Of a DNA stretch of 64,000 nucleotides, positions 1 to 64,000 are shown in pieces. The stretch spans positions 1-64,000 of the forward strand of contig NZ_JAJVDH010000008.1 in NCBI RefSeq assembly GCF_022758145.1. The letters are read 5' to 3'. Position 1 is the stretch's first letter. The number at the start of each line of letters is the position of its first letter. This DNA comes from Pontibacter vulgaris (GTDB lineage: Bacteria; Bacteroidota; Bacteroidia; Cytophagales; Hymenobacteraceae). Both the position numbers and the translations under genes were made by a program. The notes under the pieces are model-generated. The model had not been told where the DNA came from. It saw only the letters and a list, made by a program, of their open reading frames with translations, and made no database searches.

Positions 1-83
1 TTGCAACAAGCAAAAGCAGCTTTTTTGTGGCCCCGGGCCCTTACAAGCCCTTTTCCCAAATCCCGCTCCGGCTGAACGGGCTG

Positions 84-113
84 CAAAAGTAGCCTTTTGT
101 TTTCAGAAAGCAA
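84..113 (-). promoter_or_regulatory. leftward Bacteroidota-type promoter, possibly of an rRNA operon outside the window
   Basis: Read on the minus strand, 84-91 is TACTTTTG, an exact match to the Bacteroidota -7 box TAnnTTTG. A TTG lies at 111-113, 19 bases upstream, fitting the -33 element. The bases after the box read GCAGCCCG, which resembles the start of rRNA operon leaders I recall from this phylum. The transcript would leave the window to the left, so its gene cannot be seen; the rRNA idea is inference. Confidence 0.45.
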
Positions 114-340
114 GCCCCCGGCCCCAACTTTTCTACTCACATCAGCTAAGGCGCTGTCGGTGAAGGGGATTGTTTTTCAATTATTTCAAATCACTAATTC
201 CCCGACCAGCCTTTCTTTCCAGGCGCAGAGTAATAACATCAGTAATTAACTTAGAAGTTCCTGCTTGATTTAAAAATTTTGTTAATTCTCTTACTCTTAA
301 TCATTACTCAAAATACCTGCCTTGATTCATATCCACTACA

Positions 341-378
341 AAAAGAAAGAGCCCTAACAATGCAGGGCTCTTTCTTTT
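341..378 (-). terminator. bidirectional terminator after the DUF2480 gene
   Basis: A perfect 15-bp stem (341-355 with 364-378) encloses an 8-base loop. AAAAGAAAGAGCCCT pairs with AGGGCTCTTTCTTTT, giving a T-rich tail in both directions. It lies just beyond the stop of the leftward gene at 395. Confidence 0.85.
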
Positions 379-394
379 CAGTAAAGACTATACT

Positions 395-907
395 TTATAT
401 TGCCTTTGGCTTTTTATATAAAGGAACTGTACTACATGGTTCGCCATACATTAAGCTACTAACTACTGGCAGCAACTTTCGCATAATTTCTACATAGGCA
501 TAAGTTGGTACAGGTATACTTCCGCATCCTTTGATGACTACTTTTGCATCTCTATACTCTTCTGAATCTATTTTGGAAATTGCCTCCTGCATTAATGCCT
601 GTTCAAGTGCTTCCAGATCTCCGAATACATAATAATTTGCATGTGCCTGCAGTTTTGTAGCTAAAAGCATATAAGCCCAGGTTGGCACGATAGCATCAGC
701 TGAACAAACTATAGCCACATTCTTTCCGGCATACACAGACCAGTCATGCTCTTTTATAAATGCTCTGAAATCCTTCTCTCTCAGTATAAGGCCATGGAAC
801 AGATTTTCTTTTATATCATATATAACACGCTCGCCCGGGTGCAACAGTTCTTCCAGGTTTAGAGTTACGAGTGCGCTTTGGGCTACTTTATTTACAAACT
901 CTGACAT
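395..907 (-). CDS. DUF2480 family protein
   Basis: A protein of 170 residues starting at MSEFVNKVAQ. It matches the Bacteroidota-specific DUF2480 family as I remember it: an N-terminal NKVAQSALVTLNLEE segment, a central REKDFR..I..HDWS stretch, a CSADAIVPTWAYML block, and a C-terminal KGCGSIPVPTYAY followed by the SLMYGEPCSTVPLYK ending. No signal peptide or membrane segment is seen, so it is probably cytosolic. The frame stays open to 940, but that longer start would overlap tsaB; 907 leaves a 7-base gap after the tsaB stop and fits family length. It probably forms an operon with tsaB. Its biochemical function is unknown. Confidence 0.85.
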   Translation of the reverse strand: MSEFVNKVAQSALVTLNLEELLHPGERVIYDIKENLFHGLILREKDFRAFIKEHDWSVYAGKNVAIVCSADAIVPTWAYMLLATKLQAHANYYVFGDLEALEQALMQEAISKIDSEEYRDAKVVIKGCGSIPVPTYAYVEIMRKLLPVVSSLMYGEPCSTVPLYKKPKAI

Positions 908-914
908 ATATGTA

Positions 915-1613
915 TTAATTAGTAGTGCTTTTACCTGCACTTGTTATATAAACATCCTTTAAATAGAAGGGTTCATAATAAGCTACATCTTCAAACTGCT
1001 GGTTGTTATACTTTGCAAGTGCTAGCTCTCCTATTGGTTTGGCTGAAGGCACAATGCCCTCTATAAATAAGGCTTGCGAATAACCAGCTTTCATAGATTT
1101 AAACTTATCAGCACCGCTTCCGAAAAATATTATCTGCTGATGTGCCAGTTGGTTACTAAAGGTATCTTCTGTAAGTATAACCGGGGCTATTGGCAATACT
1201 TCTTCCAGGTTATGTGTGAGCATACAAGTATAAACCTCCTGGCGGCGGGCATCCAGCATCGGGCAAAACAGGTAGTTCTCAGGATTTGGTATAGTTGCTA
1301 TTACCTGGGCAGCCAAACTGTAAAGTGTAGAAACTTCTATTAAAGGTATATCCAAAGAATAGCAAAGACCTTTTGCAGTAGAGCTACCTATGCGCAAGCC
1401 TGTATAAGACCCCGGCCCACCCGAAATAGCTACTGCACTTAAATCTTTAAGACTAAAGCCGCAGTTTTCGAGCAATTGCGAAACCATAACCGTTATATGC
1501 GAAGAATGTGACTTCTCGATCCGCAACTCTGATGCCCCTAGTAGCTGTGCATCGTTAAACAGAGCAACAGAGCATACAGTAGAGGAGGTTTCGAGTGCTA
1601 ATAATAAAGACAT
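915..1613 (-). CDS. tsaB: tRNA threonylcarbamoyladenosine biosynthesis protein TsaB
   Basis: A 232-residue protein of the ASKHA fold that partners TsaD and TsaE in making the t6A modification at position 37 of ANN-decoding tRNAs. Visible hallmarks are the N-terminal LALETSSTVCSVAL phosphate-binding strand, the ExSHSSHI segment around residues 33-40, and the SGGPGSYTGLRIG signature at 64-76. It lacks the metal-binding histidines of TsaD, as TsaB should. A TAATTTTG promoter box sits about 30 bases upstream. The DUF2480 gene follows closely and is probably cotranscribed. Confidence 0.95.
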   Translation of the reverse strand: MSLLLALETSSTVCSVALFNDAQLLGASELRIEKSHSSHITVMVSQLLENCGFSLKDLSAVAISGGPGSYTGLRIGSSTAKGLCYSLDIPLIEVSTLYSLAAQVIATIPNPENYLFCPMLDARRQEVYTCMLTHNLEEVLPIAPVILTEDTFSNQLAHQQIIFFGSGADKFKSMKAGYSQALFIEGIVPSAKPIGELALAKYNNQQFEDVAYYEPFYLKDVYITSAGKSTTN

Positions 1614-1643
1614 GGGTATGGATTCTGGTAAAACTTATTTCCG

Positions 1644-1674
1644 CAAAATTAACTTAACCTGAGCAAGGTCACAA
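1644..1674 (-). promoter_or_regulatory. promoter of tsaB
   Basis: On the minus strand, 1644-1651 reads TAATTTTG, an exact TAnnTTTG box 30 bases before the tsaB start. A TTG at 1672-1674 stands 20 bases further upstream and fits the -33 element. Confidence 0.6.
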
Positions 1675-1701
1675 CTATTCTGTATTGCCTGTACTAATAT
1701 T

Positions 1702-1734
1702 AAAAAAGGGAAGCACTATTTAAAGTACTTCCCT
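1702..1734 (-). terminator. terminator of the S41 protease gene
   Basis: AGGGAAG (1707-1713) pairs with CTTCCCT (1728-1734), followed on the minus strand by a run of six T (1702-1707). It lies 20 bases past the protease stop at 1754. Confidence 0.7.
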
Positions 1735-1753
1735 CCTCTTATATTATATATGT

Positions 1754-3403
1754 TTATTTCACCTTCAGGTAAGATGCGTATTTCTGCGGATCGTTCAGAA
1801 CGCGTTTTGCCATCAGGATATCCGGATCATCGTCGAAGGTAGATTCTATATATCCCTTCTGCAGGTAGTATCTTGATGCTATTTCGGCTTCCAGCATTTC
1901 CTGTATCTCCGGTCTGAATCGGGTCAGATCGTTGGCTTTGTTATGCGACACTTTCTTCTTTATACCATCCAGCTCATTTTTAATATCCTCGTAATGCTTG
2001 CCATTTTTGGCTTTTGCGGCCAGGTCTTCTAATTCACGCTCCACCTCAGTGGTATAGTTCAGGTCCTTGTTTCCCAGGAAAGCAACAAATTTCTGATATT
2101 CGGCATCGGTCAGTTTGAATTTACTGGCGGCTGCTATACTTGGGTGCTCGGCTTTATACTTGTTTGCAAAATCAAAGAAGTAACCTTTGGAAGCTATTGT
2201 TCTGGTGATCTCAGAATAATCAGGTTGTTTTACTTCTACATCCGGGCTAACGCCACCTCCATCGTATACTACACGGCCGGCAGCAGTTTTGAAAGCAGCC
2301 CGCACCGAATCCGGAATAGTACCCACGCTGCCATCTTCGTTGCGGTGCGAATAATCAATGGCCTGTATGCAACGGCCACTCGGTATATAATATTTAGCTG
2401 TAGTAACTTTTAACTGCGAGTTATAAGAAAGCGGACGTGTTGCCTGCACCAGACCTTTTCCGTAAGTACGCTCCCCTACCAGTACAGCACGGTCATAGTC
2501 CTGCATTACGCCAGCCACAATTTCGGCAGCCGAGGCACTGTGAGAACTGGTAAGTATAACCAAAGGCACTTCTTTATCCAGAGGCTCATCAAGCGCTTTG
2601 TATGTTTTGTTCCAGTCTTTAACCTTACCCTTTGTGCTTACAATATCTTTGCCTTTATCAACAAACAGGTTAGAGATGTTAACAGCTTCGTGCAGCAAAC
2701 CGCCCGGGTTATCGCGCAAATCGAAGATAATCTTTTTAGCACCCTGCTCCTTCAGCTTCTGCACTGCCATCTTCACTTCGCGCGAGGCATCTACTGTAAA
2801 GCCCGAAAGCTGGAAATAACCAATCTCGTTATCGATCATGCCATAATAAGGTACGTTCTCTACCATAATATTGGCCCTTGTCAATTCTACAGTTCTGGAT
2901 TTTGTCTGGCCGTAGCTGCGTATTTCCAGTTTAACCGTTGAGTTAGCCTGCCCTTTCAGCAGCTTGCTTACATCAGATGAGTTTTTGTTCGATACATTAA
3001 CCCCGTCTATCTTCAGAATTTCGTCGCCTATTACAATACCAGCTTTGTGAGCAGGTGAGTTTTCATATGGCATTTGCACTACCACTTTACCATCGCGGCT
3101 GCCAACAATAGCACCTATGCCGCCATACTGGCCCGTGGTCATGGTCCGGAAATCTTCAATATCGTCTTCGGGAATGTAGTTTGTGTAAGGATCCAGCGAC
3201 TTAAGCATGGCATCTATACCTATGCGTACCATTTTAGATGGGGGTACGTCATCTACATAATACGTATTTACTTCTTTAAAAAGGGAGGCAAAAACATCGA
3301 GGTTCTTGGCTATTTCGAAATAGCGTTCAGACTCTGTTTTAAAAGCAAACAGGCCCATAGCAACGCTACCAATCAGCAGGCCGGCAATAGACTTTTTATA
3401 CAT
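1754..3403 (-). CDS. S41 family carboxy-terminal processing peptidase (CtpA/Prc-like) with PDZ domain
   Basis: A 549-residue envelope serine protease that would clip C-terminal tails of periplasmic proteins. Residues 1-21 form a hydrophobic signal or anchor. A PDZ domain spans roughly 90-165, with GGIGAIVG and the SPAHKAGIVIGDEILKIDG segment. The peptidase core contains DLRDNPGG near 228-235. By spacing to other family members the catalytic pair should be Ser291, in SASAAEIVAG, and Lys316, in TYGKGLVQ, 25 residues apart as in E. coli Prc. The C-terminal 150 residues are charged and helical. It lies downstream of rnpA with a 28-base gap, so it may share the rpmH-rnpA transcript. Its substrate cannot be read from the sequence. 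Confidence 0.93.
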   Translation of the reverse strand: MYKKSIAGLLIGSVAMGLFAFKTESERYFEIAKNLDVFASLFKEVNTYYVDDVPPSKMVRIGIDAMLKSLDPYTNYIPEDDIEDFRTMTTGQYGGIGAIVGSRDGKVVVQMPYENSPAHKAGIVIGDEILKIDGVNVSNKNSSDVSKLLKGQANSTVKLEIRSYGQTKSRTVELTRANIMVENVPYYGMIDNEIGYFQLSGFTVDASREVKMAVQKLKEQGAKKIIFDLRDNPGGLLHEAVNISNLFVDKGKDIVSTKGKVKDWNKTYKALDEPLDKEVPLVILTSSHSASAAEIVAGVMQDYDRAVLVGERTYGKGLVQATRPLSYNSQLKVTTAKYYIPSGRCIQAIDYSHRNEDGSVGTIPDSVRAAFKTAAGRVVYDGGGVSPDVEVKQPDYSEITRTIASKGYFFDFANKYKAEHPSIAAASKFKLTDAEYQKFVAFLGNKDLNYTTEVERELEDLAAKAKNGKHYEDIKNELDGIKKKVSHNKANDLTRFRPEIQEMLEAEIASRYYLQKGYIESTFDDDPDILMAKRVLNDPQKYASYLKVK

Positions 3404-3431
3404 ACTAATCAGGTTAGGGACGGAGGTAAGG

Positions 3432-3848
3432 TTACTTACTCAAACAACGTTCTAAACCGTAAATTAGTTTTTTCTGAATTGTATCGTAGGTTTTTTTTTC
3501 TTTACCAATGTAAAGTATGGCAAGAAGGCGTGGCGCCTGTGCCTGGTTCTGAAGGAGGAAATGCTTGTTAAGGCGGTAAGCCTCACGTATTTGCCGCTTC
3601 AGGCGGTTACGATCGGTTGCGCGCTTAAAGTATCTTTTGGATACAGAAATTAAAACCTGAGTAGAGCCGGGTAACGGCTCCTCTCCGGGTGGCGTGTAGA
3701 GTACAAACCGCAGCGGATACAAATTAAAAGAAGAACCCTTGCTGAACAGCAGCGCGATAAGGCGCTTACTACACAAGCGTTCTTCTTTCGAAAATGTATA
3801 GGAAGAAGGTTGCGCTGTTTGGTTATCGTTAGCGGGCTCTATATGCAT
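3432..3848 (-). CDS. rnpA: ribonuclease P protein component
   Basis: A 138-residue basic protein that binds the RNase P RNA and helps trim the 5' ends of precursor tRNAs. The diagnostic RNR motif is clear in KRATDRNRLKRQIREAYR, and FSKEERLCSKRLIALLFSKG fits the N-terminal domain. About 20 polar residues precede the conserved domain, so a shorter start is possible, but no other ATG lies close by. It follows rpmH by 35 bases, the classic bacterial arrangement. The usual next genes yidD/yidC are absent; the S41 protease comes next. Confidence 0.95.
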   Translation of the reverse strand: MHIEPANDNQTAQPSSYTFSKEERLCSKRLIALLFSKGSSFNLYPLRFVLYTPPGEEPLPGSTQVLISVSKRYFKRATDRNRLKRQIREAYRLNKHFLLQNQAQAPRLLAILYIGKEKKTYDTIQKKLIYGLERCLSK

Positions 3849-3883
3849 GAGCAGCTACGGTTAAGCAAAGCACAACCTACGAA

Positions 3884-4042
3884 TTAAGCCTTATGTCTTT
3901 TCTCGTCAGAAACAGTTAGTCTCTTTCTGCCTTTTGCTCTTCTGCTAGCAAGTACTCTTCTACCGTTAGCGGTTTCCATTCTAGATCTGAAACCGTGCTT
4001 GTTTCTTCTTTTTCTCTGAGAAGGCTGGAATGTTCTTTTCAT
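3884..4042 (-). CDS. rpmH: 50S ribosomal protein L34
   Basis: Translating the minus strand from the ATG at 4040-4042 gives 52 residues beginning [19 protein letters not shown] and ending KRHKA before TAA. This is a full-length bL34: the MKRTFQPS start, the HGFRSRM core and the [17 protein letters not shown] segment are all invariant family features. It sits directly upstream of rnpA, as in most bacteria, and has a good TAnnTTTG promoter. Confidence 0.98.
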
Positions 4043-4070
4043 CGTCTGCCAATGGTTTTATTATGGCCTG

Positions 4071-4102
4071 CAAAATTAGAGAACCTTTTCTAAATTAGCA
4101 AA
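4071..4102 (-). promoter_or_regulatory. promoter of rpmH-rnpA
   Basis: On the minus strand, 4071-4078 is TAATTTTG (TAnnTTTG) and 4099-4102 is TTTG, separated by 20 bases. Both Bacteroidota elements match consensus exactly. The box ends 28 bases before the rpmH ATG. Confidence 0.75.
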
Positions 4103-4203
4103 GTCATCCTAACTAATATTTTAACAAAGATGATAGTTTCGGGCCAAAAAGCGTTAAATAACTCTCAAAAGCCACTTTTTTATTCTCAACAAATTTCCGG
4201 TGC

Positions 4204-5925
4204 ATGATACACTACCACGTTTCCTATACAAATCCGCTGTCGCATTACCTGACCATAACCATAACTATACCTGATAACAAAGCAACTGAATTATACTTGC
4301 AGCTGCCCGCCTGGCGCCCTGGGCGCTACGAGTTGCAGCACTTTGCCCAGAAAATACGCGATGTAAAGGCCACAGCTAACGGCGGAAGTATAACAATAGA
4401 GAAGGTAACCAAAGACCGCTGGCTGGTGCAAACCGGCAGTGCAGAAAGTATAACGGTAACCTATACTTTTTACGCCCGCCAGATGGATGCCGGCGGCTCG
4501 TGGCTGGATGAAGAGCAACTATACCTGAACCCGATAAACTGTATGATGGCCGTAGCAGACCGGGAACACGAAACTTGTGAGCTTGCTCTACAAATACCTG
4601 AGAACTGGCAAATTGCCTGCGGACTAAAGAAAACTGCGAATTATACTTTAGAAGCCTCTAATTACGAACAGTTAGTTGATAGTCCGTTAATTGCCAGTGG
4701 CAATCTGAAGCACGAAGCATTTGAGTTACAAGGCACGCAATTTCATATCTGGATACAAGGCGACTGCAAACCTGACTGGCAAAAGATCATACACGATTTT
4801 AAAGCATTTACAGAAGAGCAACTGCAGGTTTTCGGCGATTTCCCGGCAACAGAGTATCATTACCTGAACCAGATTTTACCATACCGTACTTATCATGGTG
4901 TGGAGCACAGCAATTCTACAGTTATCACGCTTGGCCCCGGCGAGCTGCTAATGGAGCCCAGCTTGTACAAGGAATTTATCGGGGTGAGTTCACATGAGCT
5001 ATTCCACACGTGGAACATCAAGAAAATACGCCCGAAAGAAATGCTGCCTTACAACCTTAAACAGGAAAATTACTTCCGAACGGGGTATGTAGCCGAGGGC
5101 ATTACCACCTATTACGGCGACTATATGCTGGCACGTTCAGGGGTATTTACAACAGAACAATACTTTGCAGAACTAAACACAACCTTGCAGCGCTACTTTA
5201 CTGACTATGGCCACCAGCATCTTTCTCTTGCCGATTCATCTTTTGACCTGTGGCTGGATGGTTACAAACCCAGCATACCTGACCGTAAAGTATCTATTTA
5301 TGTAAAAGGTGCTTTAACAGCACTTCTCCTCGACCTGCAACTGCGCCGCGAAACAAAAAACCAGGCCAGCCTGGACACTGTACTAAAGAAACTTTGGGAG
5401 GATTTTGGCAAACGCACTATAGGTTATACAGCGCAGGATTACGAACGGATAGTTGAGCTAGCAGCAGGCAAATCACTCGGTTTATACTTCGACAATTTTA
5501 TTAAAGGAAACGCACCTATAGAGCAGGCTTTAGATGAGGCTTTATACTTTGTAGGCTGTAGCTTGAAAAACGAAGACAACCTGCTGCACTATGAAGCCAA
5601 GTATGGCTTTAAAATATCGGCTGAGCAAAGTATAAAAGTAACCGCCATAGCACCGGACTCTCCGGCCTCTGCCGCCTTAAGTATAGACGATGAACTGGTT
5701 GCTTTAGATGGCCGGAAACTGGAGCAAAACCTGCAACATTTATTAGCGCAGTCAGACTTACAGCAACCTGTAACGCTTACGCTTTTCCGGGATAAACAAC
5801 TGCGGCAGGTAACGCTGCAGGCAAGCAGAAAACACTTTTACCCGAAGTATAAAATAACAAAACGCTCTGATGCTTCCGAAACCGAAAAGCAGCATTTTAA
5901 ACTTTGGCTGAAGCAAGAGTTTTAA
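4204..5925 (+). CDS. M61 family metallopeptidase (glycyl aminopeptidase-like) with C-terminal PDZ domain
   Basis: A 573-residue zinc peptidase. The gluzincin motif HELFH lies at residues 264-268 (His264, Glu265, His268), followed by the M61 hallmark TWNIKKIRP. Glu298 in GYVAEGITTYYGD is the expected third ligand. The N-terminal 180 residues form the beta domain typical of M61, and a PDZ-like domain covers about 455-545 (SAEQSIKVTAIAPDSPASAAL). No signal peptide is visible, so a cytosolic location is likely. Family members act as aminopeptidases preferring Gly or Ala; the substrate here is unknown. It stands alone, with a terminator right after it. Confidence 0.92.
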   Translation: MIHYHVSYTNPLSHYLTITITIPDNKATELYLQLPAWRPGRYELQHFAQKIRDVKATANGGSITIEKVTKDRWLVQTGSAESITVTYTFYARQMDAGGSWLDEEQLYLNPINCMMAVADREHETCELALQIPENWQIACGLKKTANYTLEASNYEQLVDSPLIASGNLKHEAFELQGTQFHIWIQGDCKPDWQKIIHDFKAFTEEQLQVFGDFPATEYHYLNQILPYRTYHGVEHSNSTVITLGPGELLMEPSLYKEFIGVSSHELFHTWNIKKIRPKEMLPYNLKQENYFRTGYVAEGITTYYGDYMLARSGVFTTEQYFAELNTTLQRYFTDYGHQHLSLADSSFDLWLDGYKPSIPDRKVSIYVKGALTALLLDLQLRRETKNQASLDTVLKKLWEDFGKRTIGYTAQDYERIVELAAGKSLGLYFDNFIKGNAPIEQALDEALYFVGCSLKNEDNLLHYEAKYGFKISAEQSIKVTAIAPDSPASAALSIDDELVALDGRKLEQNLQHLLAQSDLQQPVTLTLFRDKQLRQVTLQASRKHFYPKYKITKRSDASETEKQHFKLWLKQEF

Positions 5926-5941
5926 TCCCTTCACAAACAAA

Positions 5942-5969
5942 AAGAGGAAAGCATTAACGCTTTCCTCTT
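5942..5969. terminator. bidirectional terminator between convergent genes
   Basis: An 11-bp perfect stem, AAGAGGAAAGC (5942-5952) with GCTTTCCTCTT (5959-5969), separates the M61 peptidase gene from the small leftward gene at 6007. Confidence 0.75.
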
Positions 5970-6006
5970 CTATATCTCATAGTTTAATTTTGCTTTATTG
6001 GTACGC

Positions 6007-6207
6007 TTACTTTTTATCGTAAGGTGTGTTGTTGCCACCTTTAGCCAGGTTCCTGTTTGGGTTCTGTACTTTGGTGTCATCTTCGTTTAGCGCATTGCGT
6101 GGTGGGTTACTCTCAATGTTACCCATCAGCTTGTTCGGATCCTGCTGGTCCGGGTTATTCTTTTTAAGCTCGTCCTTCGTGTTCTTATTCTTATCGTGCA
6201 TGCTCAT
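6007..6207 (-). CDS. small hydrophilic protein of unknown function
   Basis: A 66-residue, strongly polar peptide rich in Asn, Asp and Lys, with segments such as DKNKNTKDELKK and DPNKLMGNIE. It has no hydrophobic core, signal or cysteines and is probably disordered. A second ATG two codons in (MHDKNK) could be the true start. It has its own position between terminators and an intact frame. Short disordered proteins of this sort occur in Cytophagales and are sometimes stress-related, but that is only an analogy. I do not recognise the family. Confidence 0.6.
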   Translation of the reverse strand: MSMHDKNKNTKDELKKNNPDQQDPNKLMGNIESNPPRNALNEDDTKVQNPNRNLAKGGNNTPYDKK

Positions 6208-6302
6208 AGCTTGTTTTCTTAAGTAGTTTATACTTTAGTTTTACCCCTATTCGTAAGGTTAGGTTACAAATCCATACTTAAACCCCTGCCATAGAGCAAC
6301 AA

Positions 6303-6328
6303 AAAAGGGAGACTTTCGCCTCCCTTTT
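6303..6328 (-). terminator. terminator of the PfkB kinase gene
   Basis: AAAAGGGAG (6303-6311) pairs with CTCCCTTTT (6320-6328) around an 8-base loop, 23 bases beyond the kinase stop. Confidence 0.75.
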
Positions 6329-6351
6329 CCTATCGTTTATACTTGCTAAAC

Positions 6352-7275
6352 CTACTGTAGTATAGTATCGAAAGCAACCAGGTTCACAAACTGCTGCACG
6401 CGGTTGTCAATCTCCTGCTGGCTCAGGTTTTTAAGGCGCTCCGTACCAAATTTCTCTACGCAGAACGATGCCAATGCCGAACCATGAATAATGGCGCGCT
6501 TCATGTTTTCGAAGCTGATATCATCCGTAGCTGCAAGGTAACCTATAAAGCCACCTGCAAACGTATCGCCGGCTCCGGTTGGGTCAAACACTTCTTCCAA
6601 AGGTAATGCCGGCGCAAAAAATACTTTCTCTTCATTGAACAACAAGGCACCGTGCTCTCCTTTTTTGATGATCAGGAACTTAGGCCCCATCGCCATGATC
6701 TTTTTGGCAGCTTTCACCAATGAATACTCACCGCTTAACTGGCGTGCTTCTTCATCGTTTATAGAAAGTACATCTACCATAGCCATCGTTTCTTTCAGCT
6801 CGCTCAGGGCAATGTCCATCCAGAAATTCATGGTATCCATCACGATCAGTTTCGGGCGCTTTACAAGGCGCTCTATTACTGTTTTTTGTACCTGTGGTGC
6901 CAGGTTACCCAGCATCAGGTAATCGCAGCCCTGGTAGTTTTCAGGGATGATCGGATCAAAATCGCCCAGTACGTTAAGCTCTGTAACCAACGTTTCGCGG
7001 CTGTTCATGTCGTTAAAATAGCGGCCAGACCAGAAGAAAGATTTCTCGTTCTCCTTAACCTGCACGCCTTCGGTGCTGATGTTACGCTGGTGCATCAGGC
7101 TGATGTGGTCTTGGTCGAAATCGCCACCTACAACCGATACTACATTTATTGGCTTCACGAAATAAGAAGCCGACAATGAAATATAAGTTGCAGCGCCACC
7201 TACAATTTTATCTGTTTTTCCGAAGGGTGTTTCCAGCGCGTCAAACGCCATCGAACCAACTACTACTAAGCTCAT
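6352..7275 (-). CDS. PfkB family sugar/nucleoside kinase
   Basis: A 307-residue ribokinase-fold kinase. The first PfkB signature region is seen near residues 25-50 (VGGAATYISL, NVVSVVGGDF) and the second is the textbook DPTGAGDTFAGGF at 231-243, with Asp237 as the catalytic base. ATP is the expected donor; the acceptor (ribose, adenosine, fructose or other) cannot be told from the motifs. The chain is a little shorter than ribokinases, consistent with the uncharacterised PfkB group widespread in Bacteroidota. It is single in its transcription unit, with tRNA-His upstream on the same strand and a terminator on each side. Confidence 0.9.
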   Translation of the reverse strand: MSLVVVGSMAFDALETPFGKTDKIVGGAATYISLSASYFVKPINVVSVVGGDFDQDHISLMHQRNISTEGVQVKENEKSFFWSGRYFNDMNSRETLVTELNVLGDFDPIIPENYQGCDYLMLGNLAPQVQKTVIERLVKRPKLIVMDTMNFWMDIALSELKETMAMVDVLSINDEEARQLSGEYSLVKAAKKIMAMGPKFLIIKKGEHGALLFNEEKVFFAPALPLEEVFDPTGAGDTFAGGFIGYLAATDDISFENMKRAIIHGSALASFCVEKFGTERLKNLSQQEIDNRVQQFVNLVAFDTILQ

Positions 7276-7376
7276 ACTTTTAATTTTGAATGACTGATTT
7301 TTGAATGAGTGAATAATTTAAACTGAAAACCAGTAATTTAAACACTCTGCAAGTTAGCAATTAACTAAAACAAAAA

Positions 7377-7405
7377 AGCCCCTGAAGGTTTGCTTCAAGG
7401 GCTTG
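7377..7405 (-). terminator. terminator of tRNA-His
   Basis: AAGCCCCTGAAG (7377-7388) pairs with CTTCAAGGGCTT (7394-7405) with one mismatch; a T-rich run follows on the minus strand. It overlaps the last bases of the encoded CCA end of the tRNA. Confidence 0.7.
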
Positions 7406-7481
7406 GGGTGGAAGATGGGGCTCGAACCCACGACCCCCAGAATCACAATCTGGTGCTCTAACCGACTGAGCTACAACCACC
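7404..7481 (-). tRNA. tRNA-His (anticodon GTG)
   Basis: The minus strand folds as a cloverleaf: D arm GCTC/GAGC, anticodon stem CCAGA/TCTGG enclosing TTGTGAT with anticodon GTG, and T arm GTGGG/CCCAT with loop TTCGAGC. Base 7481 supplies the extra G at position -1 and 7407 the C73 discriminator, both hallmarks of tRNA-His. CCA is encoded at 7404-7406. The acceptor stem is odd: the 5' strand GTGGTTG faces the 3' strand CTTCCAC, leaving U-U oppositions at 5-68 and 6-67. Confidence 0.92.
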
Positions 7482-7651
7482 GTGTTTGAGAGTGCAAATA
7501 TACAGCACGTTTTGTTATTTGCAATACTTTGTACACACTTTTAATTAAAAAAATTTCACGCGCAACTGCTTTAAAAAGTTAACTACTTCAAGTAAAGACA
7601 GTTGCTGTAGCTATAGTTTTACTGCCACGAATCTCCAGACTAAATATAAAA

Positions 7652-7718
7652 TTGAGTTTATAACTCAACTGGGCCGGAGGCCCAACTATAGCAAGTCCCG
7701 AGCGTGGACGCTCGCGCC
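7652..7718. repeat. three-hairpin REP-like element
   Basis: Three hairpins follow one another: TTGAGTT/AACTCAA (7652-7668), TGGGCC/GGCCCA (7670-7684) and CGAGCG/CGCTCG (7699-7714). On the minus strand the last reads TGGCGCGAGC, six bases, GCTCG, then ACTT, which matches the arms of the 27-bp inverted repeat at 43981-44049. The rest of 7482-7742 shows nothing coding. The element is probably a non-autonomous dispersed repeat; no transposase is nearby. Confidence 0.5.
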
Positions 7719-7742
7719 ATACCCTTACTCATACCAGCCTTA

Positions 7743-8111
7743 TTACTTACTCAGCTTAGTGCCGCACCACGGACAGTAATTTATTACCACCATAGTTGCG
7801 CCGCCATTGTGTACTGGTATGCCATAAAGCCCTTCGTCCCATTTATTGATAATTACTTCAGGGTCATCATACTTTATCTCCCCATCTTCGTCCAGGCTTT
7901 CAAATACTTTATCGGCCATCATCATGCAGCAGTAGCTTTCGTAATCGAAGCCTTTGGCTTTCAGCTTTTCGGCAGTGGCCCAGTTATAGCAGGTTTCGTC
8001 TTCGTGTATAGCCTCCTCGTAAGCTTCATACTCTTCTGACTCTAATACTTCTTCCGGAAGCTCCTTTTCGAAGAACTTATAGTGTAATTCTTTAAACTTC
8101 TCTAACTCCAT
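7743..8111 (-). CDS. small acidic protein with a C-terminal CPWCG zinc-ribbon-like motif (DUF6980-like)
   Basis: A 122-residue, very acidic protein. The C-terminus ends in NYCPWCGTKLSK, a treble-clef or zinc-knuckle half-site, and an internal YCCMMMADK segment may provide further metal ligands. I associate this architecture with DUF6980, without being certain. There is no signal peptide. The start lies two bases after the dihydroorotase stop, so the gene is translated from the same mRNA as pyrC. Function is unknown; the pairing with pyrC may be lineage-specific. Confidence 0.75.
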   Translation of the reverse strand: MELEKFKELHYKFFEKELPEEVLESEEYEAYEEAIHEDETCYNWATAEKLKAKGFDYESYCCMMMADKVFESLDEDGEIKYDDPEVIINKWDEGLYGIPVHNGGATMVVINYCPWCGTKLSK

Positions 8112-8113
8112 AC

Positions 8114-9448: not shown

Positions 9449-9505
9449 GATGCTAAGATACGGAGAGAAGAGATTAGTTAGAAGTAAGCTTACGACAAGA
9501 ACGCA

Positions 9506-9724
9506 TTACTGATGCAGGTGCATTGCACATTCAGTACAAATCTTCAGCTCATTAACTTCCAACGGAGTGTAGTATTCTCTGATATTCTCAGCTAAAAAAC
9601 CCGGGTAAATTGTTTCTGGCAGTTCAGGCTTATACCCCTCAGACTGGCATACAATACATTGATTAAGCCACTTTCGTACTTCAGGGTATTGCTTAGAATA
9701 CTGCTGCTTATCTCTGCCTTTCAT
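9506..9724 (-). CDS. small protein with two CxxC motifs, probable zinc binder
   Basis: A 72-residue protein with CIVC near residues 23-26 and CTEC near 63-66, spaced as for one zinc site, joined by an aromatic, Glu-rich middle (YIPGF-like YPGFLAENIREYYTPLE). No signal peptide. It lies 57 bases upstream of pyrC on the same strand and may be part of that transcript. I do not recognise a named family; the cysteine pairs support a real, structured protein. Confidence 0.65.
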   Translation of the reverse strand: MKGRDKQQYSKQYPEVRKWLNQCIVCQSEGYKPELPETIYPGFLAENIREYYTPLEVNELKICTECAMHLHQ

Positions 9725-9745
9725 AATATTATTTGCTCACTCATA

Positions 9746-10319: not shown

Positions 10320-10388
10320 AGTCTTACAATATACGCATATTCTGAGACTGTATTAAACACATTATTCCTGCCTCCCGCAAAAATCCCG

Positions 10389-10396: not shown

Positions 10397-10427
10397 CATA
10401 TTAACACTAAGTATAAACTATAGTACC

Positions 10428-19129: not shown

Positions 19130-19177
19130 AGCTTTGTTGCGTCTCAAAATCATCCAATTTATACTTTAACAGGAAGC

Positions 19178-57751: not shown

Positions 57752-59848
57752 GTGAGCAACTTCTTCCATACCAAGATTGAGTTCCTGAAAGGGGTGGGAC
57801 CGCAGCGTGCTGAGCTGCTGCAGAAGGAGCTTAATATTTATACGTACGGCGACCTGATCCAGCATTACCCTTTCCGCTACCTTGACCGCACGCAGTTTTA
57901 TAGGATCGCTGAGATGGACGAGAGCCTGCCGTACGTGCAGGTGAAGGGTACCATCAAAGGCAAAGAGCTTTTAGGCGAAGGACGCAAACAGCGTTTGGCT
58001 GCCAAGCTAATAGACGAAACCGGCGAACTCGAACTGGTTTGGTTTAAAGGCGTGAAGTGGATGGAGAAAACGGTAAAAAACCACACAGAGTACATCGTTT
58101 TTGGTAAGCCAACCGAGTTTAACGGCAAATTCAGCATGGCGCACCCGGAGCTGGAAGAGTTAAGCGAGGTAAAGCAAACCAATGCATTTTTGCAACCGGT
58201 TTACCATACCACCGAAAAACTGAAGATGCACCGCATCGAGAGCAAAACCATTATGAAAATGATGGAAATGCTGTTGAAAGTGGCTGCCCCAAATATACAG
58301 GAAACCCTCTCTCCTGAACTTATAGACCATTACCGCCTGATGGACAAGCGCAATGCGCTTATCAATATTCACTTCCCGGAATCGGTGGAAAAGTATAATG
58401 CCGCCAAGTTCAGGCTGAAATTTGAAGAACTCTTTTACATACAGCTACGCTTGCTACGCCAGAAAACCGTGCGTCGTGCCGACCTGGCCGGCCAGATTTT
58501 CAGCCAGGTGCCAACTGTAACCGAGTTCTACAAAAACCACATGACCTTTGACCTGACAGGTGCACAGAAAAGGGTTATAAAGGAAATACACAAAGACCTG
58601 ACTGCAGGCAAGCAAATGAACCGCCTGCTGCAGGGCGATGTAGGTTCGGGTAAAACGATAGTTGCTTTTATTACCATGCTGATTGCGGCCGATAACGGTG
58701 CGCAGTCTGTTTTAATGGCCCCTACCGAAATTCTCGCCGACCAGCATTACGTTGGACTGAAAGCTTTTGCAGACAGGCTGGGCATTAACATCGGCAAACT
58801 AACCGGCTCTACTAAAACCAAAGACCGCAAAGAACTACACGAGCAACTCCGCTCCGGCGAAATGAAAATGATCGTGGGTACGCATGCCTTGCTTGAAGAT
58901 GTAGTGCAGTTTCAGAACCTGGGGCTTTGTATCGTGGATGAGCAGCACCGTTTTGGTGTGGAGCAGCGCTCCAAGCTTTGGCGCAAGAACCCGCGCGTCA
59001 TCCCACATGTGCTCGTCATGACGGCCACACCAATTCCGCGCACCCTAGCCATGACTTTGTATGGCGATCTGGATGTATCCGTTATTGATGAAATGCCGGC
59101 TGGCCGTAAAGAAATTGTTACAGTTCACCGCTTCGACTCGCACCGCCTGCGTGTTTTCCAGTTTCTCCGCGATCAAATAAAACTTGGCCGCCAGGTATAC
59201 ATTGTGTACCCGCTCATAGAGGAATCGGAGCAAATGGAAAACTATAAGGACCTGATGGATGGCTACGAAAGTATAAGAAGAGCCTTTCCGGAGTACCAAG
59301 TAAGTATGGTACATGGCAAATTAAAAGCGCAGGATAAAGATTACGAAATGCAGCGCTTTGTGCGTAACGAAACCCAGATTATGGTGGCTACCACCGTAAT
59401 TGAAGTGGGCGTGAACGTACCCAATGCTTCGGTAATGATCATTGAAAGTGCCGAGCGGTTTGGCTTGTCGCAGCTGCACCAGTTGCGTGGCCGGGTTGGC
59501 CGTGGTGCCGAACAGAGCTACTGTATACTCATGACGGGCTACAAGCTGAGCAAAGACAGCAAAACAAGGCTGGAAACAATGGTACGCACTAACAACGGCT
59601 TCGAAATTGCGGATATTGACCTGAAACTGCGTGGGCCCGGAGACCTGATGGGTACGCAGCAAAGCGGCGTGCTTGATTTGCTGATTGCTGATCTTGCCAA
59701 AGATGCCCCTATATTACAGGAAGCGCGGGCGGCAGCGCAACGTGTTTTAGAAGCAGATGCCCAACTTGAAAAGCCGGAAAACCAAAATTTGCGACGCCAC
59801 ATCCAATCGCTGAGTGCCAACACCGTAAACTGGAGCCGCATCAGCTAA
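57752..59848 (+). CDS. recG: ATP-dependent DNA helicase RecG
   Basis: A 698-residue helicase that regresses stalled replication forks. The N-terminal wedge OB-domain includes PHYPFRYLDRT-like YPFRYLDRTQF and TYGDLIQHYPF. Helicase motifs: Walker A LQGDVGSGKTIVAF, APTEILADQHY, VDEQHRFGVEQR, VMTATPIPRTLAMTLYGDLDVSVIDEMPAGRK, and VGVNVPNASVMIIESAERFGLSQLHQLRGRVGR. The chain is full length. Start is a GTG at 57752 (MSNFFHTKIEFLKGVGPQRAELL), the only start consistent with the family N-terminus. Confidence 0.96.
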   Translation: MSNFFHTKIEFLKGVGPQRAELLQKELNIYTYGDLIQHYPFRYLDRTQFYRIAEMDESLPYVQVKGTIKGKELLGEGRKQRLAAKLIDETGELELVWFKGVKWMEKTVKNHTEYIVFGKPTEFNGKFSMAHPELEELSEVKQTNAFLQPVYHTTEKLKMHRIESKTIMKMMEMLLKVAAPNIQETLSPELIDHYRLMDKRNALINIHFPESVEKYNAAKFRLKFEELFYIQLRLLRQKTVRRADLAGQIFSQVPTVTEFYKNHMTFDLTGAQKRVIKEIHKDLTAGKQMNRLLQGDVGSGKTIVAFITMLIAADNGAQSVLMAPTEILADQHYVGLKAFADRLGINIGKLTGSTKTKDRKELHEQLRSGEMKMIVGTHALLEDVVQFQNLGLCIVDEQHRFGVEQRSKLWRKNPRVIPHVLVMTATPIPRTLAMTLYGDLDVSVIDEMPAGRKEIVTVHRFDSHRLRVFQFLRDQIKLGRQVYIVYPLIEESEQMENYKDLMDGYESIRRAFPEYQVSMVHGKLKAQDKDYEMQRFVRNETQIMVATTVIEVGVNVPNASVMIIESAERFGLSQLHQLRGRVGRGAEQSYCILMTGYKLSKDSKTRLETMVRTNNGFEIADIDLKLRGPGDLMGTQQSGVLDLLIADLAKDAPILQEARAAAQRVLEADAQLEKPENQNLRRHIQSLSANTVNWSRIS

Positions 59849-60381
59849 GTATACTTAAAGGCTTTTTGTGGTAGCGTTTCTGGTCTGCTTGGTCGTGTTA
59901 ATTAATACAAGGCTGTCTGGCTGCTTTGTATATTTAGCTAATACACCCACCCTATAAATTGGCTTTTTAGCAGCTGTAGCAGAAGCTTCCTTTAATATCC
60001 GGCCGGCCAAAAGCAAAATAGTAAAGGGCAAAATTTTCAGTAGAAATCTAAAATTCATTTGGTACCGGCTATTTGTAAATCTATTTACACCAATTCATAG
60101 TTCAAGTTATATGCCAATAATAGGAATACCTCTATTTATACTTTAGGAGCATTTATTTATACTTTATATGCTAAACTTGTTCCTGATATGGGAAATTAAA
60201 AGAAAGACTGGGAAATTATTAAGTATACTTCCTGAAACCGCAGACGAGCGTAAGCTTTTCTTTCGTGGCAATTAACTTCTTAAAATTTTCTGCTTTACCC
60301 TATGTTAATAAATAGGATTTATTCTATACCTTGTTCTTTTAAAGAGAACAAACAACATACTGTGCCTAAAGTTTTACGCCC
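59849..60381. other. intergenic region with one weak small gene candidate
   Basis: This 533-base stretch has one possible leftward small gene at 59855-60058. The remainder is AT-rich, with scattered TATACTT words, and holds the promoter of the gene at 60382, for which no exact box was found. Confidence 0.5.
59855..60058 (-). CDS. doubtful small exported peptide
   Basis: A 67-residue frame with a signal-like start, MNFRFLLKILPFTILLLAGR, then a polar region rich in Thr, Lys and Ala. It ends 6 bases after recG on the opposite strand. It could be a real secreted peptide, but there is no family, promoter box or terminator to support it. Confidence 0.3.
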   Translation of the reverse strand: MNFRFLLKILPFTILLLAGRILKEASATAAKKPIYRVGVLAKYTKQPDSLVLINTTKQTRNATTKSL

Positions 60382-61839
60382 GTGAAAAAATTTATATACC
60401 CGCTATTTATACTTCTAGTGCTGAGCTCCGGGCTTGTTAAGGCGCAATCTAAAACAAAAGCATCTTCGCCTTTTGCTTACATACCTGATAATTCTGAAGA
60501 CCGCTACAACCAGCGCATCACTCAAAAAACCATACCAGTAGGACAAAATGAATTTGTTATACTTAGCAGGCGCTCAGAAAGCGAATATGCTGTAGAAAAA
60601 ATTAATACGGACCTTAAAAAAGCCTGGTCTGCTACACTTCCTGTTAGCACCAGCGAAACCATAGATGCCTTTTTCATAAATGGTGAAGCTGCTATAGTTA
60701 TAACCCACCGCAACAACGGGCAAGGCTCTCAACAGCTTTACGGCCACCGCATCAGCCTGCATAATGGCGCAAAACAAGAACCTGTTTTACTGGTAGAAGC
60801 TCCTTCAAAAGCCCGCAGAGCAAGTATAACAGCATCAGCAGACGGATCTAAAATACTAGCTTACCGTTACCAGACCGATGGCAACCAGCAACTCCGCAGC
60901 ATAAGCGGCACAATGTATGATGGCAACCTGGCCAGCATTAAAAATATCAGCTATAACCTCACCGATCTGCCCGCCATACTTTCTGCTGATGTGCAGTTAA
61001 GCAACACCGGCGACCAGTACATTAACCTGATATCTGATAACATGCGCCGCCTTACTGTAAAGCAATACCCGCTGAATGGCACAGAAGTTAAGGTGATGTC
61101 TGTTTTGGTAGGTGGCGTGTTCGAAGGCAGAAAAGTATACATCATGGACAGCAAGTTTTCACTGATGCCCGATGGCCAGCTCTATGGCGCAGTGCTTACT
61201 TCAGACGAGGACTCCGGCCAATACTATAGTTTGAAAGCTGTGAAGTTTAATTTCGAAGCAGAAGATATGGTGTTTGCCGAAGAATTTAAATTTACCCCAA
61301 CTTACCTGGCAAGTATAAATCAGCTTGATAAATATTCTGCCACTAAACCTGACCGCCTGGAAGACATTTACCTTTCGGATTTAGTGCTGACGCCAGAGCA
61401 GAAACTGGTGGTAATGGCTGAGAAAAAGTATACCGAAGGCGGAGAAAACTCGCCTTACTATGCCCGCGAAATCCATTTATTTGCTTACGATGAATTTATG
61501 GATAACGCGTGGAGCTCTGTGCTGATGAAACACCAGAAAGCCCCGGCCGATGAAGCTTTTTCAGGTATTTCGTACAAGGCTAAGCTATTCGGTAATAACC
61601 TGCATTTGCTAACACTGGAAGAGCTGAACGGGAAGTATGATTTATACTTACGCCGCATTAACACAAGCACGGGCACAGCCGATGCCCCTAAAGCAATAGG
61701 CCTTAACGTGGCAAACGATAAAAGTATAGCTTATGTAAAGGACTTTACTGCCTGGCTAACCGACAGGAATATTATTACAGTGGTGCGGCCAACCAAAAAG
61801 GCAAACAGCCTGCAGTTAAGTCGCATTCTGCTGAAATAA
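60382..61839 (+). CDS. secreted protein of unknown function, probable beta-propeller
   Basis: A 485-residue exported protein with a GTG start. Signal peptide MKKFIYPLFILLVLSSGLVKAQ, then regular stretches of four-stranded pattern such as GQNEFVILSRRSESEYAVEKINTDLKKAWSATL, AFFINGEAAIVITHRN, YDGNLASIKNISYNL and RLTVKQYPLNGTEV, suggesting a beta-propeller. No catalytic motif seen. The gene contains eight copies of the TATACTT/AAGTATA word. The stop is one base from that of the convergent glycosyltransferase. Confidence 0.7.
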   Translation: MKKFIYPLFILLVLSSGLVKAQSKTKASSPFAYIPDNSEDRYNQRITQKTIPVGQNEFVILSRRSESEYAVEKINTDLKKAWSATLPVSTSETIDAFFINGEAAIVITHRNNGQGSQQLYGHRISLHNGAKQEPVLLVEAPSKARRASITASADGSKILAYRYQTDGNQQLRSISGTMYDGNLASIKNISYNLTDLPAILSADVQLSNTGDQYINLISDNMRRLTVKQYPLNGTEVKVMSVLVGGVFEGRKVYIMDSKFSLMPDGQLYGAVLTSDEDSGQYYSLKAVKFNFEAEDMVFAEEFKFTPTYLASINQLDKYSATKPDRLEDIYLSDLVLTPEQKLVVMAEKKYTEGGENSPYYAREIHLFAYDEFMDNAWSSVLMKHQKAPADEAFSGISYKAKLFGNNLHLLTLEELNGKYDLYLRRINTSTGTADAPKAIGLNVANDKSIAYVKDFTAWLTDRNIITVVRPTKKANSLQLSRILLK

Positions 61840-61840
61840 C

Positions 61841-62572
61841 TTAACTTTCTAAACTCTGGAGGGCGCGGGTTTTATAGGCTGGTTTTCCTTCGTGTTTGTG
61901 CCGCAGCTTTTTAGTAAAGGAAGTAAGTTGCAGCATCATGTGCGAGAAGCCTACAAACGACACAATTTCTACATACATTTTAAACTCTTTTTTAGAGCCG
62001 TCCAGTATGCCAAGCTTATCCACTTTATAGGTATTCATAGCCGACCATGGCATCCAGCGCACAATCTTTTTATGCTTTAGCATGTAGCGGTTTATAGCTA
62101 CCTCCAGCTGGTAACGCTTCATGCGCTGCTTCATAACCTGCTCCAGGTCCGTTTTCTTGATCAGCCGCTCTCCTGAAAGCAAAATATCACTGCGGTACCA
62201 GCGTACAAACCACGGCGAGTTAATACGCCTGAGTATAATCATGTCGATAGCCCGGTGATCATCCATAGCGGTTATGGCGGCTTCTATCTCTTCCTGCCGT
62301 AAGTCCTGCAGGTCAGCATCCATTAACAATATCAGATCATTTTTAACAGCAGGCAGGCCATGGCGTATAGCGGCAGCTTTGCCTTGGTTTTCTGGCAGGC
62401 GCACCAGTTCTACCTGCGGCCATACAGCCTCCAGGTACTCAGCAGTTCCATCAGAAGATCCGTCATCCACGCAAAGTATCTGCCCAATGTTTTTTACACG
62501 GCATATTACCTCCAGCACCTGCGCAATTCGCTCCCTTTCGTTGTAAAAAGGTATAAGACATGTGGCTTTCAT
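61841..62572 (-). CDS. GT2 family glycosyltransferase
   Basis: A 243-residue GT-A enzyme. Start MKATCLIPFYNERERIAQVLEV (62572) is preferred, since the frame upstream to 62620 adds 16 unsupported residues. Nucleotide-sugar site: CVDDGSSDGTAEYLEAV and LLMDADLQDLRQEEIEAAI with the metal-binding DAD. The C-terminal part, with RRINSPWFVRWYRSDILLSGERLIKKTDLEQVMKQR, is short, without a membrane anchor. Likely works on envelope glycans or lipids. Donor and acceptor unknown. Confidence 0.85.
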   Translation of the reverse strand: MKATCLIPFYNERERIAQVLEVICRVKNIGQILCVDDGSSDGTAEYLEAVWPQVELVRLPENQGKAAAIRHGLPAVKNDLILLMDADLQDLRQEEIEAAITAMDDHRAIDMIILRRINSPWFVRWYRSDILLSGERLIKKTDLEQVMKQRMKRYQLEVAINRYMLKHKKIVRWMPWSAMNTYKVDKLGILDGSKKEFKMYVEIVSFVGFSHMMLQLTSFTKKLRHKHEGKPAYKTRALQSLES

Positions 62573-62713
62573 TCTTCTTTCTATACTACTGTATTTGTGT
62601 TCTTCAACATACGTGAACAAACGCCGGATTTCCCATTTTATGGTGCAAATAATTTACCGTTTACACGCAGTAAATATACTTATAGTTTAATGTTATCCGG
62701 TAATTGAGTATAA

Positions 62714-62745
62714 AAAAAGGCTACCTCCTTAGGAGATAACCTTTC
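62714..62745 (-). terminator. weak terminator of the acyl-CoA dehydrogenase gene
   Basis: AAAGGcTAcCTCC pairs with GGAGaTAaCCTTT with two mismatches, with a T run on the minus strand, past the stop at 62774. Confidence 0.5.
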
Positions 62746-62773
62746 TGTGTTTTAAATAAGAGTTATCAGGATA

Positions 62774-64000
62774 TTAATAAACGTATTCGTTTGCCTCGAT
62801 CAGGGCAGCTGCTATTCTGCGGCGAGCCTCTTTTGTGTTGTAAAGGTCTTTCTTTGTAAAGCGTTTCAGGCCCATAAACAGCAGGCGCTGCTCATCTCCT
62901 TCAGCCATCGAGGCAATGGCATCTTTACCAGCCAGGTAAGCAGTATCCACGGCATCGTTTACCACTACACGCACAATATCTATCTGGTTAGCAACAGCAG
63001 CTTCGCCTTCCAGGCCAACACGTTTTTCAACGCGTAGCAGTGTAGATTCTGCCACGTAAGTTTTGATTACCATATCCGCAATGTTCATCAGGATTTCCTG
63101 CTCTTTAGCCAGCGAGTTCATGTACTTTTGCACCGCTGTGCCGGCTACCATAAGTATGGCTTTTTTCAGGTTACGGATGGCTTTATGCTCTGCGGCAAAC
63201 AGGCCTTCTTCTTCAGAACCAAAATCAGGTATAGCCATCAGTTCGCCTTGTACTGCTTGTGCCGGCCCCATCAAGTCGAGCTCACCGCTCATGGCTTTCT
63301 TCAGGATCATATCCACGGTAAGCATGCGGTTTATCTCGTTGGTGCCTTCAAATATGCGGTTAATACGGGAGTCGCGGTAAGCACGGTCCATTGGGTAGTC
63401 GGCAGAGAAGCCGTAACCACCGTAGATCTGTACGCCTTCATCTACCACATAATCCAGTACTTCAGAGCCTTCTACTTTAAGTATAGCACACTCCACGGCA
63501 AATTCTTTTGCAGCACCCAGCAATGCTTCGTTCTCGTTTTTACCGGCAGCCATCAGCTCCTGTTCTTTGTGGTAAATATCCATACCTGCACGGTACAAAG
63601 CAGATTCTACGGCATAAATGCGAATGGCCTGCTCCGCCAGCTTATGCTTGATGGCGCCGAATTTTGCAATTGGCAGCTTAAACTGCATACGCTCGTTGGC
63701 ATACTTAACCGACAGGTCAGCTACTTTTTTGGCGGCACCCAATGTAGCGGCAGCCAGTTTAATACGGCCAATATTCAGGATGTTGAATGCAATTAAGTGC
63801 CCTTTGCCAATCTCGCCCAGCACGTTTTCTTTTGGTACCTGGCAATCTGTTAAGAACACCTGCCGAGTAGATGATCCTTTGATACCCATCTTGTGCTCTT
63901 CGTTACCGAGGCTAAGACCAGGATAATCTTTCTCAACTATAAAGCCGGTAAATTTATCGCCATCTACCTGCGCAAACACGATGAACACATCGGCAAAACC
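62774..64000 (-). CDS. acyl-CoA dehydrogenase, 5' part outside the window
   Basis: The minus-strand frame is open to the right edge, giving 408 visible residues beginning GFADVFIVFAQVDGDKFTGFIVEKD; the N-terminus lies beyond. Family features: the middle domain GLSLGNEEHKMGIKGSSTRQVFLTDCQVPKENVLGE, then the C-terminal helical domain with RMQFKLPIAKFGAIKHKLAEQAIRIYAVES, and YGFSADYPMDRAYRDSRINRIFEGTNEINRML, the flavin and substrate signature. The extra C-terminal 150 residues make it resemble the large (about 600-residue) Bacteroidota acyl-CoA dehydrogenases. FAD-dependent alpha-beta desaturation of acyl-CoA in beta-oxidation. Confidence 0.92.
   Translation of the reverse strand, partial: GFADVFIVFAQVDGDKFTGFIVEKDYPGLSLGNEEHKMGIKGSSTRQVFLTDCQVPKENVLGEIGKGHLIAFNILNIGRIKLAAATLGAAKKVADLSVKYANERMQFKLPIAKFGAIKHKLAEQAIRIYAVESALYRAGMDIYHKEQELMAAGKNENEALLGAAKEFAVECAILKVEGSEVLDYVVDEGVQIYGGYGFSADYPMDRAYRDSRINRIFEGTNEINRMLTVDMILKKAMSGELDLMGPAQAVQGELMAIPDFGSEEEGLFAAEHKAIRNLKKAILMVAGTAVQKYMNSLAKEQEILMNIADMVIKTYVAESTLLRVEKRVGLEGEAAVANQIDIVRVVVNDAVDTAYLAGKDAIASMAEGDEQRLLFMGLKRFTKKDLYNTKEARRRIAAALIEANEYVY

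Follow-up and report, generated by a model that had tools for sequence, protein, structure and literature searches.

According to a paper of 2025 (PMC12616744), telling self from foreign DNA during uptake by means of enriched words is known from just two bacterial families, the Neisseriaceae and the Pasteurellaceae. The DNA uptake sequence (DUS) of the Neisseriaceae is described as forming eight dialects on a fixed 3-base core, with one two-dialect genome, wordless relatives and a distribution congruent with the core tree (PMC3630211), and as strongly conserved at aligned sites (PMC2397512). Here we analyze a word from another phylum, the Bacteroidota: the heptamer AAGTATA (TATACTT on the opposite strand), which is iterated throughout one 64-kb contig, hereafter the window (positions 1 to 64,000, the whole stretch under study), of the 4.19-Mb draft genome of the host, Pontibacter vulgaris. 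The dihydroorotase of the host shares 93% identity with the enzymes of P. aydingkolensis and P. mucosus, which places it in Pontibacter (Bacteroidota, Cytophagales). We suggest that this word is probably a self-recognition tag for DNA uptake, working like the Neisseriaceae DUS and the uptake signal sequence (USS) of the Pasteurellaceae. No uptake word in Bacteroidota was found in the literature that we searched, which included no preprints and few subscription papers.

Excess of the word in the host genome

An earlier sequence-only reading of the window had described the word as recurring on both strands over its whole length, in genes and between them, and it was right: there are 183 dispersed copies (112 reading TATACTT and 71 reading AAGTATA on the plus strand), compared with a mean of 11.73 (standard deviation 3.52, maximum 25) in 100 dinucleotide shuffles. 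Its counts by eye were also accurate, with seven copies in an MsbA-like ABC transporter gene (NCBIfam; 15404–17242, plus strand) and eight in a plus-strand gene at 60382–61839 that matches nothing in NCBIfam or Pfam. In a larger host sample of 464 kb (the window and 20 further stretches, with gene boundaries from a simple custom gene caller), to which host counts refer unless otherwise stated, AAGTATA occurs 1260 times versus 151 expected under a second-order Markov model, a density of ~2.7 copies per kb, and is the most over-represented heptamer among those with at least 30 occurrences. A maximum-order model, the check that the reading had proposed, gives 159.5 expected copies for the 183 in the window and is insensitive, because the 6-mers within the word are already inflated by the word itself.

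The 1260 words comprise 819 lying wholly in genes (2.2 per kb), 415 in intergenic DNA (4.7 per kb) and 26 across a boundary. The base that follows is preferentially A (59%) and T is shunned; the resulting AAGTATAA counts 743 versus 46, and genome-wide it occurs 6128 times versus 177 for a reversed-letter control. The spelling AACTATA is also enriched in the host, by 4.9-fold. Spacing is mildly clustered (coefficient of variation 1.26), so that even spacing was not observed, and hairpin terminators were rejected as an explanation, as inverted neighbors 10–59 bases apart are nearly equally frequent in both orders (51 versus 45). The iterated word is a real and strong phenomenon within one genus, and it has in common with DUS and USS that it is short, far above expectation and scattered in and between genes.

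The word, rather than the protein, picks the codons, as the reading had also proposed. Shuffling of synonymous codons leaves 114 coding words versus the 819 observed, and the excess is present in all six phases, that is, in all three codon phases of both orientations. Ile-Leu is spelled ATA-CTT in 330 of 837 cases versus 58 expected, so that the claim survives the comparison with other Ile-Leu codings that the reading had set as its own test, and Ser-Ile is spelled AGT-ATA in 179 of 550 cases versus 29 expected. What did not hold is the premise that ATA is a rare Ile codon, as it accounts for 2803 of the 8022 Ile codons of the host (35%).

A by-product of base composition and codon use is almost certainly not what the word is. 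Words of the ACCTG, TCCGGA and GAAGAA types also exceed simple expectation in the window, and words of such types persist in genomes without a strong word of the kind studied here, as a compositional origin might predict; but the sevenfold excess survives codon shuffling, the word is strong at 53–54% GC and its density goes up with GC (rho 0.315 over 116 4-kb bins of the host genome), and it is missing both on plasmids of the same cells and in sister lineages. The dinucleotide and codon shuffles rule out composition and codon bias as its sole cause.

Dialects on a fixed core

We extended the analysis to 50 Pontibacter genomes, the host and 49 relatives, taking from each relative one 20-kb stretch orthologous to that around recG (57752–59848 of the window, plus strand), and more from some; several genomes were classed from these 20 kb alone. 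Classing was by heptamer excess over a first-order model, and no count includes the second contig of G002 (L252, L253). Counts of AAGTATAA range from 2125 to 7030 in 23 genomes and from 204 to 1201 in the other 27, and most genomes low in it carry a different spelling of the word.

These spellings are dialects, with a variable triplet on a fixed TATA core. AAG-TATA is the dialect of 20 genomes, AGG-TATA of 12 forming one clade (431 copies versus 16.5 expected in 240 kb) and AAC-TATA of four (262 versus 12.9 in 80 kb), and three genomes are double, carrying AAG and AAC together (135 and 132 copies versus 12.2 each in 60 kb). Two further dialects occur in one genome each: NGG-TATA in G070 (AGG 14-fold, GGG 12-fold, TGG and CGG 6.6-fold; AAG, ATA and TTA 5.6–6-fold) and NTA-TATA in G069, with a GC content of 53.5% (ATA 25-fold, TTA 18-fold, CTA 15-fold, GTA 8.5-fold; CCA and TCA 7–8-fold). 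A strong word is missing in the remaining nine genomes, here called wordless, where there are traces: AGG 4.5-fold and AAG 3.1-fold in G064 and G025, AGG 4.4-fold in G002, AAG 4.0-fold in G024, AGG 3.8-fold on eight copies in G007, and at most 3.2-fold in G028, G034, and G026 with G068. Among named species, P. arcticus carries AAG, and no such word was seen in 21 kb of P. qinzhouensis. Outside the genus the word fades: TATACTT is paired within 20 bases 594 times in the host genome, whereas none of 22 genomes from elsewhere in the order exceeds 11 such pairs, this maximum coming from a 9.0-Mb genome (G040) in which the reversed-letter control gives 5.

In seven genes shared across the genus, ATA makes up 26% of Ile codons in AAG genomes and 27% in wordless ones, which again speaks against its being a rare codon. 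Of the Ile-Leu pairs of AAG genomes, 74 of 349 are spelled ATA-CTT; the share is 3% (of 159 pairs) where there is no strong word and 4% (of 220) where the word is AGG, but AAC genomes, too, have 11 of 73.

Dialects that share the core follow phylogeny, with many genomes being classed from 20 kb only. On a tree of seven concatenated proteins (2773 columns, all from one region, with a midpoint root that serves drawing only), the seven dialect labels change 9 times versus 26.7 in shuffles. The AGG genomes form one side of a branch (12 rows) and the AAC and double-dialect genomes group together (n = 7), each with a support of 100 in the Shimodaira–Hasegawa-like approximate likelihood ratio test (SH-aLRT); AAG genomes lie on either side of the drawn root, and the wordless label accounts for four changes. 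Wordless genomes are larger (median 5.8 versus 4.6 Mb; 9 versus 41 genomes, p 1.9e-5), though with only four independent pairs a sign test is uninformative, and the difference may come from shared descent.

Other iterated words were met outside Pontibacter. In 21 kb of Spirosoma profusum, ACGTAGC occurs 22 times on both strands versus 1.9 expected and ACGTATC 18 times, nearly all copies of the former lying within the first 11.4 kb of the stretch (L021, ~1–11400), and S. utsteinense has only four; Spirosoma may be a second genus of Cytophagales with an iterated word. CAGCTGC occurs 36 times versus 4.2 expected in 21 kb of Chitinophaga sp. GbtcB8, where CAGCAGG and others are high too, possibly by codon use. 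A metagenome-assembled genome of the Cytophagaceae (L056) has the palindrome AAGGCCTT at six places (12 over both strands) versus 0.8 expected.

Conservation and respelling of sites

Sites were compared by pairwise alignment of the recG stretches, the pooled counts reusing sites and related genomes. An AAG word keeps its spelling at 53% of sites when the partner is also AAG, versus 24% for random heptamers, and at 47.5% when the partner has both dialects (random 17%); it is kept at 10.7% in wordless partners (random 17.7%), 7.8% where the partner is AGG and 12.3% where it is AAC. Computed genome by genome, the ratio of retention to background is 1.33–3.03 for AAG and 2.50–2.98 for double-dialect genomes, 0.05–0.89 for AAC, AGG, NGG and NTA genomes, and 0.02–1.43 for wordless genomes, among which G002 (1.43) and G007 (1.13) overlap or come near the lowest AAG genomes. 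In this one 20-kb region, genomes that share a dialect retain words at orthologous sites more often than expected from background.

Between dialects, words are often respelled in place. AGGTATA stands at 15.6% of AAG sites in AGG partners versus 3.7% in wordless partners, and AACTATA at 14.4% in AAC partners versus 0.6% in wordless partners. In single pairs with the host, AGGTATA was found at 7 of 32 sites in an AGG genome (G015), where AAG was found at none, and AACTATA at 5 of 27 sites in an AAC genome (G060); of two wordless genomes, one (G028) had neither spelling at 30 sites and the other (G064) had AGGTATA at 3 of 32. For the NTA genome, ATATATA was found at 0 of 34 sites, so that this dialect shows no respelling in place. 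The AACTATA copies of the host itself are matched by AACTATA in 28 of the 45 comparisons made with AAC genomes, versus 17 of 138 for AAG genomes; we take them to be fossils of a dialect that was either earlier or shared.

A drive resembling that proposed for the highly iterated palindrome HIP1 would likewise conserve sites and respell them in place. Here, a DNA methyltransferase together with methylation-dependent mismatch repair would make and keep the word, and dialects would track changes of methyltransferase. Cyanobacterial HIPs are indeed described as having alternates, or being nearly absent, depending on the genome, with matching methyltransferases (PMC4390886), and some Pontibacter dialects are partly palindromic, for example ACTATAGT and GGTATACC. 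The main word, AAGTATA followed by A, is non-palindromic, however, and the scarcity of the word on plasmids reported below would not be expected if a cellular enzyme acted on all resident DNA, unless the plasmids were recent. We therefore regard a mechanism of this type as unlikely. The sequence-only reading had likened the word to HIP1 or to uptake sequences; the second likeness fits better, since the word is no palindrome, has dialects built on a fixed core, is conserved at orthologous sites, is respelled in place and is scarce on plasmids. Overlapping copies do form a palindromic pair, AAGTATACTT, at 21730–21739, 28542–28551, 33280–33289, 59847–59856 and 60221–60230 of the window; its raw count in 464 kb is 25.

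Strand bias

We used the G-rich versus the C-rich strand as a proxy for strand bias, with bins of weak skew excluded. The fraction of words on the G-rich strand is 0.544 in the host, 0.55 in G013 and G014 together, 0.55 in G022, 0.59 in G035, 0.505 in AGG genomes, 0.508 in AAC genomes and 0.58 in G069 (36 words), so that seven of the eight sets lie between 0.50 and 0.59; the eighth, made up of recG stretches from AAG genomes other than the host, has 0.628 in one shared region.

It would be tempting to see in this slight excess a recombination hot spot like Chi, read by AddAB or RecBCD, which would spread since incoming DNA that bears the word recombines better. The drive would then resemble that of uptake, the word is asymmetric and has 7–8 bases as such a site might, and the literature on HIP1 lists Chi among the classes of over-represented oligomers (PMC4390886). 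AGG and AAC genomes are without strand bias, however, and the highest value is that of a single region. The Chi of E. coli is strongly strand-biased, and ~2.7 copies per kb would be dense for Chi. A hot spot of this kind is in our view distinctly unlikely.

Word-poor DNA

The word is scarce in DNA that was acquired horizontally, another feature shared with DUS and USS, as seen in three plasmids and a polysaccharide cluster. The plasmids belong to AAG species, P. actiniarum (G020), P. kalidii (G021) and P. akesuensis (G001); they were deposited as such, and transfer genes are annotated on that of P. kalidii. Seven 20-kb plasmid stretches contain 0.5–5.5 words per 10 kb versus 12, 21 and 13 in the chromosomes of the same three species, each sampled by a single 20-kb stretch. 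In the host genome, 6 of 116 4-kb bins are word-poor, and three of these lie within a polysaccharide cluster (asparagine synthase, epimerase, glycosyltransferase, Wzz; GC 0.30–0.44). The remaining three contain gidA, dnaK and an erythromycin-esterase-like gene; since two of these are core genes, poverty in words is not a mark of foreign DNA alone.

Such a distribution, with the word scarce on plasmids and present throughout the sampled chromosome, could also come about if the word were the binding site of a protein that organizes the chromosome or marks self DNA for defense, with no role in uptake. Binding alone, however, offers no force by which many sites would be respelled in place between close species, and we know of no chromosome-organizing or defense protein of that kind. 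We consider this explanation very improbable.

Competence genes

Transformation of Riemerella anatipestifer, a member of the same phylum, is reported to require, among others, ComEC, DprA, a three-HHH periplasmic protein, an outer-membrane barrel and a member of the DUF5689 family (PMC8459023). In Pontibacter, ComEC was found in all 34 genomes tested, DprA in all 50 (48 above the cut-off) and HHH_3 in all 50, including a ComEA-like protein of ~300–350 aa, which in the host has three HHH_3 stretches. The window holds a YifB family Mg chelatase-like ATPase gene (19127–20716, plus strand; TIGR00368, 643 bits; also Pfam), of a family also known as ComM, which has a role in transformation in other bacteria. 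It also holds a 1602-aa open reading frame on the minus strand (26287–31095) without a match in NCBIfam or Pfam.

We propose that a putative surface DNA receptor would prefer DNA with NNN-TATA bearing the cell's own triplet, that the tagged DNA would enter through the action of ComEC, DprA and the HHH protein, and that the word would be written into the chromosome by recombination. The tag would thereby spread and be repaired through its own transmission, and a change in receptor specificity would start a new dialect, which would respell the genome site by site.

Several observations weigh against this proposal. The PilT family (TIGR01420) was found in none of the 50 Pontibacter genomes at E <= 1e-20, with 10 of 14 control genomes positive and no search aimed at pilins, and therefore another machine would be needed. 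No receptor was found among the DUF5689 and barrel-protein candidates in the 50 genomes, and there is no record of DNA uptake or transformation of Pontibacter in the literature searched, within the scope given above. The nine wordless genomes have whole ComEC, DprA and HHH genes, so that there these genes do not follow the word. Conversely, one disrupted gene each is found in G018 (ComEC, L279) and G009 (DprA, C13), both with strong words; recent loss or an assembly error could account for either. In G022 all three genes are disrupted, which looks like lost competence and counts in favor of the proposal: 17 of 18 other orthologues looked whole there, and the single exception was also flagged in two of six further genomes. 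Its words nevertheless stand at 2.2-fold background, and its AAGTATAA count (2537) is not below that of G020 (2246), whose competence genes look whole. The strand bias of 0.628 in the recG stretches also belongs on this side.

The receptor candidates were rejected one by one. DUF5689, the family to which a surface protein of the Riemerella competence operon belongs, occurs in 22 of the 50 genomes with no relation to the word; from their sequences, two of four loci inspected adjoin SusD-like genes and two are long nuclease-type proteins. The barrel protein that adjoins DUF5689 in Chryseobacterium has weak relatives in 15 of the 50 genomes, one of them wordless, and does not follow the word either; by Pfam these relatives are TonB-dependent receptors, and scoring in one comparison covered 18 candidates per genome. 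The HHH protein is no better a specificity factor, its reading frame being whole in all nine wordless genomes. As a side observation, a TonB-dependent receptor of ~850–900 aa is present in 15 of the 50 genomes (L290–L304), with several loci near the start of a second CarboxypepD-type gene.

Discussion

Taken together, our results support the interpretation of the sequence-only reading, and a function of the word in DNA uptake is what they suggest. The word evolves like DNA uptake sequences; we do not class it as a DUS, because the pilus part is lacking and uptake itself, like the receptor and the role of uptake as the driver, is something that we infer. More broadly, we see about an even chance that Bacteroidota evolved sequence-specific DNA uptake without type IV pili, with at least five NNN-TATA spellings in one genus, fossil spellings that are still legible, and a receptor of a new kind. 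If true, this system would be the first of its kind beyond the Neisseriaceae and Pasteurellaceae and would do without the PilT family; such a third case, coming from another phylum, would mean that uptake tagging arose more than once, with different machines. As dialects, double-dialect genomes, fossils and wordless sisters all occur in one genus, the origin, switching and loss of uptake words would become testable there, and the genetics of Pontibacter could possibly be aided if donor DNA needs the right word.

Comparison with known systems

Of the systems that might be compared with the Pontibacter word, Chi is likewise a short asymmetric word, but strand bias in Pontibacter is weak or nil in most sets. 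The USS word is not known to be related to that of Pontibacter. USS is nonetheless also an enriched short word with dialects, is described as tied to competence, and differs in its receptor, for which a type IV minor pilin is predicted (PMC12616744), whereas Pontibacter is without the PilT family. HIP1 and the alternate HIPs of cyanobacteria are likewise highly iterated, with alternates in some genomes, but are described as palindromic and as going with methyltransferases (PMC4390886), unlike the main Pontibacter word, which is not a palindrome. No uptake word is named in the parts of the Riemerella report available to us (PMC8459023); Pontibacter shares with the transformation set described there ComEC, DprA and the three-HHH protein, but neither the DUF5689 lipoprotein family nor the operon barrel protein tracks the Pontibacter word. 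The Neisseriaceae DUS, whose receptor is ComP, has the same form of a short over-represented word in coding and intergenic DNA, with dialects on a core, a double-dialect genome and wordless relatives. The Pontibacter word is set apart from it by its occurrence in another phylum, its four-base TATA core with a variable triplet, its density of ~2.7 copies per kb (464 kb) and its presence in genomes without the PilT family.

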